Of a DNA stretch of 64,000 nucleotides, positions 57,240-61,904 are shown one piece after another. The stretch covers positions 34,081,986 to 34,145,985 of the forward strand of contig NC_135355.1 in assembly GCF_051622035.1 (NCBI RefSeq), read 5' to 3'. Positions within the stretch are counted from its first letter, which is position 1. Every line of letters starts with the position of its first letter. The notes under the pieces were generated by a model. It did no database searches and had not been told where the DNA came from. It saw only the letters and a program-made list of their open reading frames with translations. A program made the translations under genes and the position numbers. The DNA comes from Arctopsyche grandis. Taxonomy: Eukaryota > Arthropoda > Insecta > Trichoptera > Hydropsychidae.

Positions 57240-57427
57240 ATCTCATAGAACATGAACACTCGCTTTTACAGATCGCTCCAAAGCGACGAGTGCACTTAAA
57301 CAGATACAATACAATCAATATACATAAGCATTTTTTACAATGCGAATTCGTACAAACATCCACAGTAACATCTTTGTAAATCTAAATTTGTAATATATAA
57401 TTATGTGTACGTTCTAAGTGTATAATA

Positions 57428-58504
57428 ATGGCATCAGAACGCATAAGTGAAGTAATAACAATTGAAAAAAAAATTATGGACATTTTGACCACAAAAACTA
57501 ACAGTATATCAAACGACAATAAGTCATTTTTAATTACATCAGTAAAAAAATTAGTTGAATATATTTGTGAAAATGAAAATAATGATAAGGAACAATTTTT
57601 GGATGTAATATGTGAATTAAGAAGTGAATTTAAAAATTTGAAAAACAATATACAAAAAGACATAAATATACTAAAAACTAACAGTGAATTAAACATTTTA
57701 AAAAGTGTAAATAAAAATGATAACAATTTAAGTTATGCAAATGCACTTAAAAAAAATAATAATGACGTAACAATAATTGTTCCGAAAAAAATTCAAGATA
57801 CGGACAAAACAAAAAATGAGTGCAAAAATTTAATAAAACCAAAGGAACTAAAAATAGGAATACAAGGGGTTAAAAAAATCGGTAAAGGGGGCATTGCTGT
57901 AACGTGTAACAGTGCACAGGATAGTATTAAATTAATAAAAGAAGTAGAAAATAAATTAGGGGAGAATTATAATGTTAAAAGAGGGGAATTAAAAAATCCC
58001 AAAATTAAAATTGTAGATATGTCGGAGGAACTTACAAGTGAACAGTTGGCTGAGTGTTTGATGAATCAAAATCAAGAAGTTATAAATGATGGTGAACTGA
58101 AGGTGTTAAAAATATGGAAAAGTAGAAAAAATAATAAATATAATGCGATAGTGGAAGTAGATTGCAATACATTTAAAAGATTTATTGAAGATGGAAAAGT
58201 AAATATAAATTGGGATAGATGTAGGGTTTTTGAAGAAATTAATATTCTAAGATGTCTAAATTGTTACGGATTTAATCACAAAGCGGTGGATTGTAGAAAC
58301 AAGGTGACATGTGCGAAATGTGGAGAAGAAGGGCACAAAAGCGAGGGATGTAACAATAAAATAATAAAATGTAATAATTGCTTTAAAAGTAATAATAAAT
58401 TAAAATTAAATTTGAACACAAATCACGGACCGTTGGACACTAAGTGCAGTGTATATAAAAGAAATATAGAATTAATGAGAAATAGAATTAAGTATAATAA
58501 TATA
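57428..58504 (+). CDS. LINE ORF1, gag-like nucleic-acid-binding protein
   Basis: 359 residues from ATG 57428 (AATAATGGC). An N-terminal helical, Lys/Asn-rich part holds a coiled-coil-like stretch, then SYANALKK (about residue 100). A middle region (about 140-270) has the layout of the RRM-like fold of such ORF1 proteins. C-terminal zinc knuckles follow: CLNCYGFNHKAVDC, CAKCGEEGHKSEGC and a third, CNNC with a later His and Cys (about 283-345). It probably coats the LINE RNA and helps strand exchange. It ends at UAG 58505-58507, immediately and in frame with ORF2. Codon use is strongly A-ending and AT-rich, like ORF2. Confidence 0.93.
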
Positions 58505-58513
58505 TAGCAACCA
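58505..58513 (+). promoter_or_regulatory. Candidate stop-codon readthrough signal UAG CAA CCA
   Basis: The only stop between the two LINE coding parts, followed by CAA CCA. This fits the UAG-CAR-YYA consensus that directs programmed readthrough in tobacco mosaic virus-type contexts. The codon before is AUA, with A at position -1. Confidence 0.6.
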
Positions 58514-61336
58514 CCAAAAGGTATCGGTATAAATGTACAAAGTTTTTTTGCTCACAAGGATGAGGTTTGGAGTTTAACTGTAAGTCAAAAACCATTATTT
58601 ATAGGTTTAAGTGAAACGCATGTAACTAGTGATTTTGAAGATTTTGAGCTGAATATAGATGGATATTGTGTTTTGAGATGTGACTCTAATTCTAGACATA
58701 CGGGTGGGGTACTATTGTATTTAAGGGATGATTTAAGTTACGGTAATGTAATAGTTAATAAGGTTGATGGTGAGTTTTGGACAATTGGTGTGGATCTGCT
58801 TGTGAATGGAGTTACTGTGTTTTTGCTAGTAATTTACCGCTCTCCGAATGGTAGAAGTGGAAGATTTCTTAAATTTTTAGAAGAATTGAGTGAAAGAAGT
58901 ATAGATGTGAGTAAAAATATAATTATGTTTGGGGACTGGAATTTTAATTGGTTACAGACAGAAGAATTTTATGTAAAAAAGTTGAGAAATTGGGTAAATG
59001 AATTGGGTTTTAAACAAAAAGTGACGGAAGCAACGAGAGTGAATAATTTATCAAGCTCTCTCATTGATTTGGTTATAACAAATATAATGGATCTGCGGTG
59101 TGAGGTGAAAGATGTACCGAAAATAGGAGACCATTCTATTGTCAACATGTTTTTGGGACAGCGGTTTAGTAACGGAGGACTTAAAAATATGCAGGTGACT
59201 GAAAGAGAAAACATTGATTATCAATTGATGAATGAATTGTTAAAGGAGTGTGTATGGGGAAAGGATGGTGATAGTGTGAATGAAATGTGGGAGATAATGT
59301 ATCGTAATATAACATATTCTAAAAGTAAATGCGTAAAAACCACAAGAATCATGCATAAGCATAAGCTGAAACCTTGGTTTACCAAGGAAGTAAAGGAAAG
59401 CTTAGTTGATAAGAATGTTAGTTATAAAAGATATAAAATTATTAAGGCTATGGATGGAATCCAATTAGAAAAGGCTTGGTTAGAGTATAAAAGAAAGAGG
59501 AATAAATGTGTGAATGTTTTACGTAATGCGAAGAGGGATTGGCATGAAAGAAATATTGATGGTGCAAAAAAAGATCCCACAAAAATGTGGCGAATAATTA
59601 AAACTTTGATTTCCGGGGGAAAAAATGTTTCTTTGAATGAATTAGAAGTCGAGGGAGTAGTATATAATGATAAAGAGGATATGGTTGAAAGATTGAATGA
59701 GTTTTACATCAATAGTGTGAATGATATAGTTAATTCAATACAAATAAGGCATAATAGTGTGAATGATGATATTAATTTGGGTTTAAATAAGTTTGAAAGG
59801 TTTAAATTAGTGGAAATGGGGGGATTAAATGGTGTATTGAAGGGCATGAAATCAGTTTCTAGTATGGATGGATTGACTCTAGATATTTTAATCAACACTT
59901 GGGACATGGTTGGACCTCAGTTACTGAAATTAATAAATGAATCGTTAGAAGTGGGATCCGTCCCGGATGCATGGAAGGTGTCTACTATTGTACCGGTACC
60001 AAAGGTTACTGGCACACATAAAGCCAGTGAAATGAGGCCCATCAATATGTTACCAATTGTTGAGAAGATGCTGGAGGAAATCGTTATGATTCAATTGAAA
60101 GAGTTCATTAGTATAAATGATTGTTTGGTTGTGGAACAGTCTGGATTTAGAGTGAAACATTCAACAGAAACCGCTATCCAGTTGGTGGTTTCTGATTGGA
60201 TGGAGACGATGGATGAATCTAGCATGGTTGTTGGAGCAGTTTTTCTAGATTTTAAGCGAGCGTTCGAGACAGTAGATAGGAATATTTTATTACAAAAATT
60301 ATATAAGTTAGGAATAAATGGTATAGTATTAAAGTGGCTTCAGTCATACTTAAATAATAGAAGGCAAAGAGTAAAAATTGATAAGGTGTTATCCTCTGAA
60401 TTTGTAACACCTCATGGAGTGCCGCAAGGGTCCAAATTGGGACCCTTATTATTTATATTATATATAAACGATATTGTTAAGGTAATTAAGATGTGTAAAA
60501 TACATTTGTTTGCAGATGATACATTGATATATATAATTGGAAAGAATGTTGATGTAATGTCTGAGATTTTAAATATAGAATTAAATTATGTGAATGACTG
60601 GTTGTGTGAAAATAAATTAAAGTTGAATGTGAATAAAACAAAAATGATGTGGTTGAATGGTAAAAATAAAAATATATTGAATGAAATTAGAATTGATGAT
60701 AAGTTAATTGAAAAAGTTGAAAATATAAAATACTTAGGTGTATACATAGATTCAGGACTAAATTTTAAAATGCACGCTGACTATATAATAAAAAAAATGG
60801 CTAGAAAAGTTGGTGTATTATGTAGATTAAGAAATATTTTAAGTAAAAAAAGTAAAATTTTAGTGTTTAATTCAATTGTCTTGCCACATGTGGTTTATTG
60901 TGCCACTGTGCTTAATTTGTTTAGTGGCCAAGATTTAGAAAAAATGCAAAAAATACAGAATAAAGCTATGAGAGCTATTTTGAATGTGAGTAGATTTAAG
61001 AGTATTGGAAGTATGTTAGATGAATTAGGATGGATGAGTATTAGAATTAGTCTAAATATTAGTACATTGTCTTTTGTTTATAAGTTAGATCATAAGTTAT
61101 TACCTAAGTATTTTGATGATTATATAATAAGGAATAGAGATAAACATAGTTTTTATACTAGAAATAAGGACAAACTAGTTGTAAGTAGAGTAAGAAAGAA
61201 TAAGACGGCTGGGGGTGTTTTTCACAGGGGTGTGCTCATGTATAATGCCCTCCCTGAGTGCGTCAGGTCTGCTAAAAACATGGATGCATTCCTGCGAGGT
61301 GCAAAGAGACACCTCTGTGAGGGACAGTACATATAA
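58508..61336 (+). CDS. LINE ORF2, endonuclease and reverse transcriptase
   Basis: 942 codons open directly after the ORF1 UAG. An APE-type endonuclease is at about residues 1-220: GIGINVQSFF, GLSETH (catalytic Glu), GDWNFN (Asp/Asn), SSSLIDLVITN and GDHSIV (catalytic His). The reverse transcriptase spans about 420-720: RPINMLPIVEKMLEEIV, SGFRVKHSTETAI, FLDFKRAFETVD (first Asp), GVPQGSKLGPLLFILYINDI and FADDTLIY (Asp-Asp at 60515-60520). A thumb and C-terminal region ends MYNALPECVRSAKNMDAFLR. The first in-frame ATG is 58925, after GLSETH, so normal AUG initiation would lose part of the endonuclease. A fusion with ORF1 by readthrough is inferred. ORF2 nicks the target and reverse-transcribes the RNA there. 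Confidence 0.93.
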   Translation, partial: QPPKGIGINVQSFFAHKDEVWSLTVSQKPLFIGLSETHVTSDFEDFELNIDGYCVLRCDSNSRHTGGVLLYLRDDLSYGNVIVNKVDGEFWTIGVDLLVNGVTVFLLVIYRSPNGRSGRFLKFLEELSERSIDVSKNIIMFGDWNFNWLQTEEFYVKKLRNWVNELGFKQKVTEATRVNNLSSSLIDLVITNIMDLRCEVKDVPKIGDHSIVNMFLGQRFSNGGLKNMQVTERENIDYQLMNELLKECVWGKDGDSVNEMWEIMYRNITYSKSKCVKTTRIMHKHKLKPWFTKEVKESLVDKNVSYKRYKIIKAMDGIQLEKAWLEYKRKRNKCVNVLRNAKRDWHERNIDGAKKDPTKMWRIIKTLISGGKNVSLNELEVEGVVYNDKEDMVERLNEFYINSVNDIVNSIQIRHNSVNDDINLGLNKFERFKLVEMGGLNGVLKGMKSVSSMDGLTLDILINTWDMVGPQLLKLINESLEVGSVPDAWKVSTIVPVPKVTGTHKASEMRPINMLPIVEKMLEEIVMIQLKEFISINDCLVVEQSGFRVKHSTETAIQLVVSDWMETMDESSMVVGAVFLDFKRAFETVDRNILLQKLYKLGINGIVLKWLQSYLNNRRQRVKIDKVLSSEFVTPHGVPQGSKLGPLLFILYINDIVKVIKMCKIHLFADDTLIYIIGKNVDVMSEILNIELNYVNDWLCENKLKLNVNKTKMMWLNGKNKNILNEIRIDDKLIEKVENIKYLGVYIDSGLNFKMHADYIIKKMARKVGVLCRLRNILSKKSKILVFNSIVLPHVVYCATVLNLFSGQDLEKMQKIQNKAMRAILNVSRFKSIGSMLDELGWMSIRISLNISTLSFVYKLDHKLLPKYFDDYIIRNRDKHSFYTRNKDKLVVSRVRKNKTAGGVFHRGVLMYNALPECVRSAKNMDAFLRGAKRHLCEGQYI

Positions 61337-61559
61337 GTTAATTATAAATTTTAGAGTTAAGTATAATAATTAAGATGTATTTTTAAATTAGCTTGATAGC
61401 TAAAATATATATAAATAAATAAAAATAAAATAAATAAATAAATCTGTGGAGAAATTAGTGCAGCATTTTATAATCAAATTGGCGAACCTCAAGACTCTGA
61501 ATAACTTGAGATTAGCAAAAGAGATAGGAAAGGAGATGTCATTTTATAGGAAACGTTTC

Positions 61560-61713
61560 AATAAAAAAAATCAGAAAAATTGGCAAACTCTGGTAAGAAA
61601 CGATCGACCTGGAGTCACAAACCAAGGTCTGGTTAGCAGCGGGGCTCTGGTGGGACTCGAACACGTGACCATCTGCTCGAAAGCATAATATGCTAACCAC
61701 TAGTCGACGCCAA
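61560..61713 (-). repeat. tRNA-derived SINE, head type 1 (copy C)
   Basis: On the minus strand: GGCGTCGACTAGTGGTTAGC (box-A-like), then box B GTGTTCGAGTCCCACC, then body AACCAGACCTTGGTTTGTGA and CCAGGTCGATCGTTTCTTAC. It is near-identical in body to copy A. 61444-61559, between it and the LINE tail, is unassigned. Confidence 0.8.
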
Positions 61714-61904
61714 GATAATCATCATAGTCTATGTGATCGGCAAAACCTTACACATGTACATATAATGTATGTATAATGATCGTCTATTATAGCTACTCAC
61801 CTCTTCCAACTCATGATTCGATCTGATGACAATTTTTACTCGTCCTGATATTTTTCTCAGATGGTCGTTCTCAAATCATTCGAGCTTGGTTGTACTTTCT
61901 GAGC

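Follow-up and report, generated by a model that had tools for sequence, protein, structure and literature searches.

Candidate UAG readthrough between the in-frame ORF1 and ORF2 of a young LINE family in the trichopteran Arctopsyche grandis

A single frame interrupted by one UAG

The window analyzed here is a stretch of 64,000 nucleotides from the trichopteran Arctopsyche grandis (NCBI RefSeq assembly GCF_051622035.1, contig NC_135355.1, positions 34,081,986 to 34,145,985 of the forward strand), towards the end of which lies a copy of a long interspersed nuclear element (LINE). Its two open reading frames (ORFs), a gag-like ORF1 and an ORF2 that encodes an apurinic/apyrimidinic endonuclease (APE)-type endonuclease and a reverse transcriptase (RT), share one frame and are separated by a single UAG (Table 1). 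The context of this stop codon, UAG-CAA-CCA, is an exact instance of UAG-CAR-YYA, the consensus of tobacco mosaic virus (TMV)-type, or type I, stop codon readthrough (PMC3542737). The stop, its context and the open frame behind it had been described in a first-pass annotation made from the letters of the window, and our analysis confirms that description.

Table 1 Features of the LINE copy (positions are those of the window)
Feature	Position	Strand	Observations
LINE copy	57377-61443	+	single copy, ORF1 through ORF2 plus both untranslated regions (UTRs)
5′ UTR remainder	57377-57427	+	truncation point of the window copy; in 21 of 29 other extracted copies the alignment begins exactly at 57377, and further upstream they carry sequence that is absent from the window
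ORF1, 359 amino acids, gag-like, C-terminal CCHC zinc knuckles	57428-58507	+	ATG 57428, stop TAG 58505-58507; 16 other ORF1s share invariant Cys/His columns
ORF1 zinc-knuckle region, residues 276-340	58253-58447	+	invariant or nearly invariant columns of the ORF1 alignment
UAG-CAA-CCA, candidate readthrough signal (type I consensus UAG-CAR-YYA)	58505-58513	+	sequence; followed by CCA
ORF2, 942 codons, in the frame of ORF1, no AUG before codon 140	58508-61336	+	stop TAA 61334-61336
APE-type endonuclease domain, ORF2 residues about 9-210	58532-59137	+	Pfam PF03372 (E 8.7e-5) and PF14529 (E 6.8e-4), neither reaching its curated cut-off
RT domain, ORF2 residues 506-747	60023-60748	+	Pfam RVT_1, E 4.4e-33
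Short 3′ UTR	61337-61409	+	common to 30 extracted copies, alignments reaching at least 61423
TAAA-type 3′ repeat tail	61410-61443	+	length varies by copy; alignments of other copies stop at 61423-61445, then differing A/T-rich ends

The first in-frame ATG of ORF2 is at position 58925, which is 139 codons past the UAG, inside the endonuclease and beyond the catalytic Glu of its GLSETH motif, as the annotation had also stated. Its placement of the onset of endonuclease homology within about five codons of the stop was slightly early: the homology begins by ORF2 residue ~8-9 (INVQ). Between 90 nt upstream and 250 nt downstream of the stop, all AUGs of the window except one are out of frame, and the ORFs that they open are 1-14 codons long; the sole in-frame AUG, located 33 nt before the stop, runs into the UAG. 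As ORF1 and ORF2 are in the same frame, frameshifting was rejected as the route to ORF2.

The nine-base motif TAGCARYYA occurs once on the two strands of the window, compared to 4.4 occurrences expected from shuffled sequences. By itself the motif is weak evidence, and it gains its weight from its position exactly on the ORF1/ORF2 boundary. Given a stop codon, CAR-YYA is expected to follow it with a frequency of ~0.0017 under the codon usage of the window ORF2. As in type I readthrough, the stop is directly followed by conserved coding sequence that keeps the frame. Local folding, a procedure that does not cover pseudoknots or long-range pairing, detected no stable fold within the 121 nt beginning at the stop, either in the window (z +0.91) or in L002, a relative described below (z +0.35), and a local 3′ stem-loop signal was rejected. 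Local 3′ structure is expected for the UGA class of signals, unlike the CARYYA class (PMC3542737). That none was detected would fit a type I signal, for which six bases suffice.

The element has the properties of an APE-type LINE, namely (i) an RVT_1-type RT behind an APE-like endonuclease, (ii) a gag-like zinc-knuckle ORF1, and (iii) dispersed copies with 5′ truncation and a 3′ tail. The ORF2 profile matches human LINE-1 ORF2p across both endonuclease and RT (E 4e-40), and LINE-1 endonuclease structures were also matched. The ends of the element carry no long direct repeats and hence no long terminal repeats (LTRs). Pfam gives no accepted family for ORF1, the zf-CCHC profile staying below its threshold, and finds no protease in either ORF; the knuckles are defined by the ORF1 alignment, in which C276, C279, H284, C289, C295, C298, H303, C308, C315, C318, H333 and C340 are the conserved columns.

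Copies in the host genome

The host genome (475.7 Mb in 189 contigs) contains at least 48 full-length ORF2 matches, which are 99-100% identical and free of internal stops; this is a lower bound on the number of copies, as it counts the full-length matches scored among 13,336 candidates. All 30 extracted copies (L026, which is the copy in the window, and 29 others) carry TAG-CAACCA, and so do all 30 loci of a second, overlapping set chosen by DNA. A separate junction search, which left the codon at the stop position free and tolerated no more than three mismatches, and to whose pattern more diverged copies are invisible, returned 118 matches (56 + 62), with the exact TAG-CAACCA junction in 112 (51 + 61); the 100 matches that were listed individually are all TAG-CAACCA. 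The UAG of the window is thus not a private mutation in a family whose young copies mostly carry a sense codon, a possibility that the first-pass annotation had raised against its own proposal.

Under the standard genetic code, the ORF2 frame is exactly 942 codons long in 49 of 49 scored matches and in 60 of 64 matches of another set comprising largely the same copies. When UAG is read as Gln, the frame exceeds 942 codons in all 48 scored ORF2 matches (957 to 2,893 codons). The stop at the upstream end of the 942-codon ORF2 is therefore UAG.

Divergence within the family is low. Besides the window's own copy, five copies show 1-2 nt differences from the window element over 3,909 nt, and 12 others show 22-32, in ungapped comparison, a count that indels or truncation shift in the remainder; in gapped alignments, the 29 other copies show 3-35 mismatches to the window over the aligned part. 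A second subfamily differs from the window at ~5 synonymous and 2 nonsynonymous codons of ORF2 (551 and 2275 sites, respectively; the ratio of nonsynonymous to synonymous rates, dN/dS, is roughly 0.1) and, where comparable, at ~10 and 10 codons of ORF1 (193 and 884 sites; roughly 0.2), so that these few differences point to a dN/dS below 1. As more than 100 young copies retain the UAG and dN/dS appears to lie below 1, the family multiplied recently while carrying this stop codon. It is young and recently active, and it is probably still active. With the ORF2s of L002 and of a predicted protein relative (P0006) as queries, the best candidates scored in the host genome gave only apparent matches to the same family and no second, diverged one.

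The other copies share ~130-140 nt upstream of ORF1. The window copy lacks the upstream part of this region and is 5′-truncated within the 5′ UTR by roughly 80 nt. No clear target-site duplications were found around the extracted copies. In one copy, L046, an inverted piece of the 3′ part of the element (window 61116-61334) adjoins the 3′ end and a reversed tail-like match precedes the 5′ end, an arrangement that is perhaps due to a second insertion or to twin priming. A segment just downstream of the window copy, at 61498-61715, contains a B-box-like GTTCGAGTCC on its minus strand, and part of this segment is found again in the sequence flanking four further copies (L030, L048, L054 and L055); the segment is perhaps a tRNA-derived short interspersed nuclear element, though ARAGORN found no tRNA adjoining the LINE.

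Relatives of the element

A scan of genome contigs for related ORF2s yielded 21 loci (L002-L022), 20 of which are 24-34% identical to the window ORF2. All of them sit in prokaryote genome records but resemble eukaryotic LINEs, and they probably represent contamination of these assemblies. Scans of viral contigs gave no full-length relative. The closest locus, L002 (LDIY01000043.1), is presumed to be eukaryotic contamination in a soil metagenome-assembled genome (MAG) of TM6, in which the element has one match; its ORF2 is 38% identical in the best segment and 31% in the C-terminal segment. The L002 ORF1 has the same knuckle region and ends with TAG followed by CAA CTA (UAG-CAA-CUA, again CAR-YYA) at the same place; ORF2 continues the frame of ORF1, and its first in-frame AUG comes 17 codons in, past the first strand of the endonuclease. 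UAG and CARYYA, whose conservation among relatives the first-pass annotation had proposed to examine, are shared by the two lineages (2/2) for which junction DNA is at hand, a small number; at the protein level, P0051 agrees with such conservation and P0003 does not (see below).

In a quick tree of a 55-row clade of relatives and MAG contigs, the window and L002 are far apart and, together with the predicted protein P0051, occupy separate deep branches. Synonymous sites would be expected to be saturated at the distance between the window and L002, which makes the shared UAG-CAA-CYA an argument for selection or for repeated gain. The expectation for CAR-YYA under the codon usage of the L002 ORF2 is ~0.0023 and TAG makes up ~0.2 of stop trinucleotides at window composition; multiplying the codon-usage expectation by the TAG share, we obtain a rough chance probability of ~5e-4 for the recurrence.

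The position of the ORF1 end is conserved more widely. We aligned 17 ORF1s: those of the window and L002, and 15 of the 17 matches of an ORF1 search, leaving out P0082, which is the window's own, and P0098, which is short and distant. In all 17, the C terminus follows the last knuckle Cys by 16-23 residues. The relatives, which include a protein of Microplitis mediator, are 26-51% identical to the window ORF1. Because the ORF1 search put a length limit on its candidates, fused proteins could not appear in it; among the 39 matches of a separate search for these, ORF1 sequence was seen in two, P0003 and P0051. As predicted proteins, both show ORF1 and ORF2 in one frame, whatever the origin of the Gln that each carries at the boundary. 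In P0051, this Gln occupies the column where a relative, P0093, stops, and is followed by Gln-Pro, which corresponds to UAG-CAR-CCN with UAG rendered as Gln.

Predicted ORF2 starts were compared in 50 relatives (P0001-P0024 and P0051-P0080 minus P0003, P0023, P0051 and P0079; P0025-P0050 and P0081 were unused). They are scattered from before residue 1 to residue 69, with 24 at or before the first-strand Asn of the endonuclease (residue 9), 24 between this Asn and the catalytic Glu, and two beyond the Glu, which places 26 of the 50 past the Asn. The scatter looks as if the gene caller had taken the first available start codon. In these predictions no AUG for ORF2 is common to the clade, and a single clade-wide start codon was rejected. 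Of the findings that, according to the first-pass annotation, would speak against readthrough at this locus, a frame shift elsewhere is absent, and a conserved ORF2 start is absent as a general feature of these relatives, with a partial exception in seven of them that is weighed below.

A junction scan of 22 fetched loci revealed four further loci, belonging to three distant LINE families, in which a long ORF1 is in frame with ORF2 across one stop. Among these four, L019 (1-3251, from a Poribacteria MAG contig) alone matches a classic readthrough signal: its stop (1088-1090) lies in a UGA-CUA-G core, no AUG is present from the stop to the start of the endonuclease, and its ORF1 contains a Pfam PHD finger. 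In two MAG contigs, L013 (stop 353-355) and L017 (stop 1230-1232), the two ORFs are in one frame across UGA-CAA-ACC, although ORF2 could also begin at an ATG that lies ~38 codons further on, immediately ahead of the endonuclease. In L020 (stop 1459-1461), an in-frame ORF1 is followed by UAG-GAA and an ORF2 with no early AUG, and this ORF1 contains a 2A-like GDVETNPGP. LINE ORFs with a 2A-like NPGP ahead of the endonuclease were also observed in L003, L004, L006-L009, L016 and L021, which are MAG and symbiont contigs.

Readthrough, its alternatives and its precedents

The observations that bear on the translation of ORF2 are the single frame, the lack of a usable in-frame AUG before the endonuclease, the signal at the boundary, more than 100 young copies, the same motif class in L002, and the conserved ORF1 end. 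On this basis we consider it highly probable that the LINE makes an ORF1-endonuclease-RT fusion by TMV-type readthrough of the UAG. Ribosomes would start at the ORF1 AUG and most would terminate at the UAG, releasing the zinc-knuckle gag-like ORF1 protein. In a small fraction, the 3′ CAA-CCA would induce acceptance of a near-cognate tRNA at the UAG, presumably with insertion of Gln or Tyr, to give a fusion of about 1,302 amino acids, and the stop codon would thus set the ratio of ORF1 protein to enzyme, as in the Gag/Gag-Pol of readthrough retroviruses. We infer the readthrough itself, its rate, the inserted amino acid, and the function of the fusion as a working enzyme from the arrangement of the element. 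The same interpretation, put forward in the first-pass annotation, gains support from a stop that is not private, from the lack of a frame shift, and from the recurrence of the context in L002.

Several observations weigh against this interpretation. The ~118 host copies descend from a recent common ancestor and do not represent independent conservation of the stop; six of the 118 junction matches have no resolved stop codon, and other codons are possible there; and the dN/dS estimate has few differences behind it. Junction DNA comes from two lineages alone, the other relatives in the clade being predicted proteins. One of these, P0003 (46% identical), has Gln at the column of the window stop and then Arg-Gln-Lys, so that CAR-YYA is not kept. 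In proteins of the P0003 and P0051 type, in which Gln makes up 2-4% of residues, the Gln at the boundary may be a real codon, in which case the stop would be dispensable, or it may be a UAG that the gene caller rendered as Gln. Finally, 24 of the 50 predicted ORF2 starts do not lie past the first-strand Asn, and seven of these are at a Met directly before it, where the window has Ile (ATA). The placement of these N termini is approximate, and the seven include P0002, which is 45% identical and belongs to the window's own five-row group. Some relatives may thus start ORF2 at an AUG of their own.

These seven starts also bear on the alternative in which ORF2 is a separate protein, made by reinitiation or internal entry at a non-AUG codon between the UAG and the first strand of the endonuclease, as initiation at this site could be ancestral. 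Termination-reinitiation is known from SART1 and has been put forward for LINE-1 (PMC5972666). However, reinitiation predicts neither the shared frame nor the CAR-YYA hexamer, both of which are present in the window and in L002, and the AUGs around the window stop lead into out-of-frame ORFs or into the UAG; we regard this alternative as unlikely. A different possibility is that the layout is real, but that L002 matches UAG-CAR-YYA by coincidence and something else controls the translation of ORF2. With two lineages sampled, a chance probability that is low but above zero, and P0003 lacking the hexamer, this has some basis, against which stands the Gln-Gln-Pro that P0051 reads from the stop column on; we judge such a coincidence to be very unlikely.

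The single long ORFs predicted for P0003 and P0051 would also suit a scenario in which the UAG is a nonsense mutation in a formerly continuous ORF, whose copies spread on enzyme supplied by intact relatives. The host junctions, in which TAG and not a sense codon is in the majority, the mostly synonymous ORF2 differences between the subfamilies, the 16 other ORF1s that stop at about the same place, and the stop and context shared by L002 largely refute this scenario, and we consider it extremely improbable; in the form of a mutation private to the window, it was rejected. Removal of the stop in RNA, by A-to-I editing of the UAG or by splicing, has a parallel in that editing of a UAG occurs in another system, but the downstream side of the stop, which was the side folded, forms no stable stem-loop, and neither process gives a reason to keep CAR-YYA. 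To this explanation we attach next to no probability.

In retroviruses of the murine leukemia virus (MLV) type, an in-frame UAG between Gag and the enzyme sets the ratio of the two, and a 3′ pseudoknot and a protease are used. In the LINE, too, a single UAG separates a gag-like protein from an enzyme encoded in the same frame, but the element has no protease match in Pfam and no local structure, pseudoknots being outside the fold model. TMV-type readthrough shares with the LINE the exact consensus, an in-frame downstream enzyme ORF, and the lack of detected local 3′ structure (PMC3542737), whereas here the candidate signal is found in an animal LINE, with a gag-like protein upstream and an endonuclease-RT downstream. 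The Copia-type LTR elements Tca2 and VdLTRE5 also have an in-frame stop between gag and pol, but they are LTR elements and, according to the report on VdLTRE5, both lack CARYYA (PMC3441728). SART1 and LINE-1 are, like the present element, two-ORF LINEs that need a non-standard route to ORF2, yet they reinitiate at a separate ORF2 start (in LINE-1, this is a proposed and unconventional process; PMC5972666), whereas the present element keeps one frame throughout and has no AUG ahead of its endonuclease.

Among LINEs, the one readthrough precedent in the matches listed by our literature search, where it is inferred, is found in Paramecium. The host of these elements has a changed genetic code. 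In the non-LTR Group 3 elements, ORF1 and ORF2 are in one frame, which led the authors to suggest that the ORF1 stop is read through; these are ciliate elements of a separate RT clade, and the available text names no signal (PMC5405496). The view of the first-pass annotation that the strategy might be undescribed thus has to give way as regards readthrough of a LINE ORF1 stop as such, and it may still hold for the signal, in that no UAG-CARYYA was tied to a LINE among the matches listed by the search, which did not cover many subscription papers; the listed papers that name CARYYA deal with LTR elements. On this reading, the A. grandis element joins a LINE to a recoding signal that is itself known, a pairing that appears to be new.

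To explain how LINEs produce so much less enzyme than ORF1 protein, reinitiation, internal entry and overlap have been proposed. A defined nine-base signal that can be mutated would make the ratio directly testable. If readthrough takes place, the enzyme would carry ORF1 as its N terminus, and recoding of a viral type would operate at more than 100 recent loci in the genome of a single animal. Elements of this kind may also end up split or truncated in gene predictions and repeat libraries. We give about even chances to a broader proposal. In it, UAG readthrough between ORF1 and ORF2 would be the ancestral route to the enzyme in the 55-row clade, a large and perhaps undescribed clade of animal LINEs in much of which ORF2 lacks a start codon of its own, and LINEs would have recruited readthrough more than once, as the UGA-CUA-G of L019 would suggest. 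If readthrough is indeed ancestral in this clade, LINEs would share the solution that retroviruses have found for Gag and Gag-Pol.

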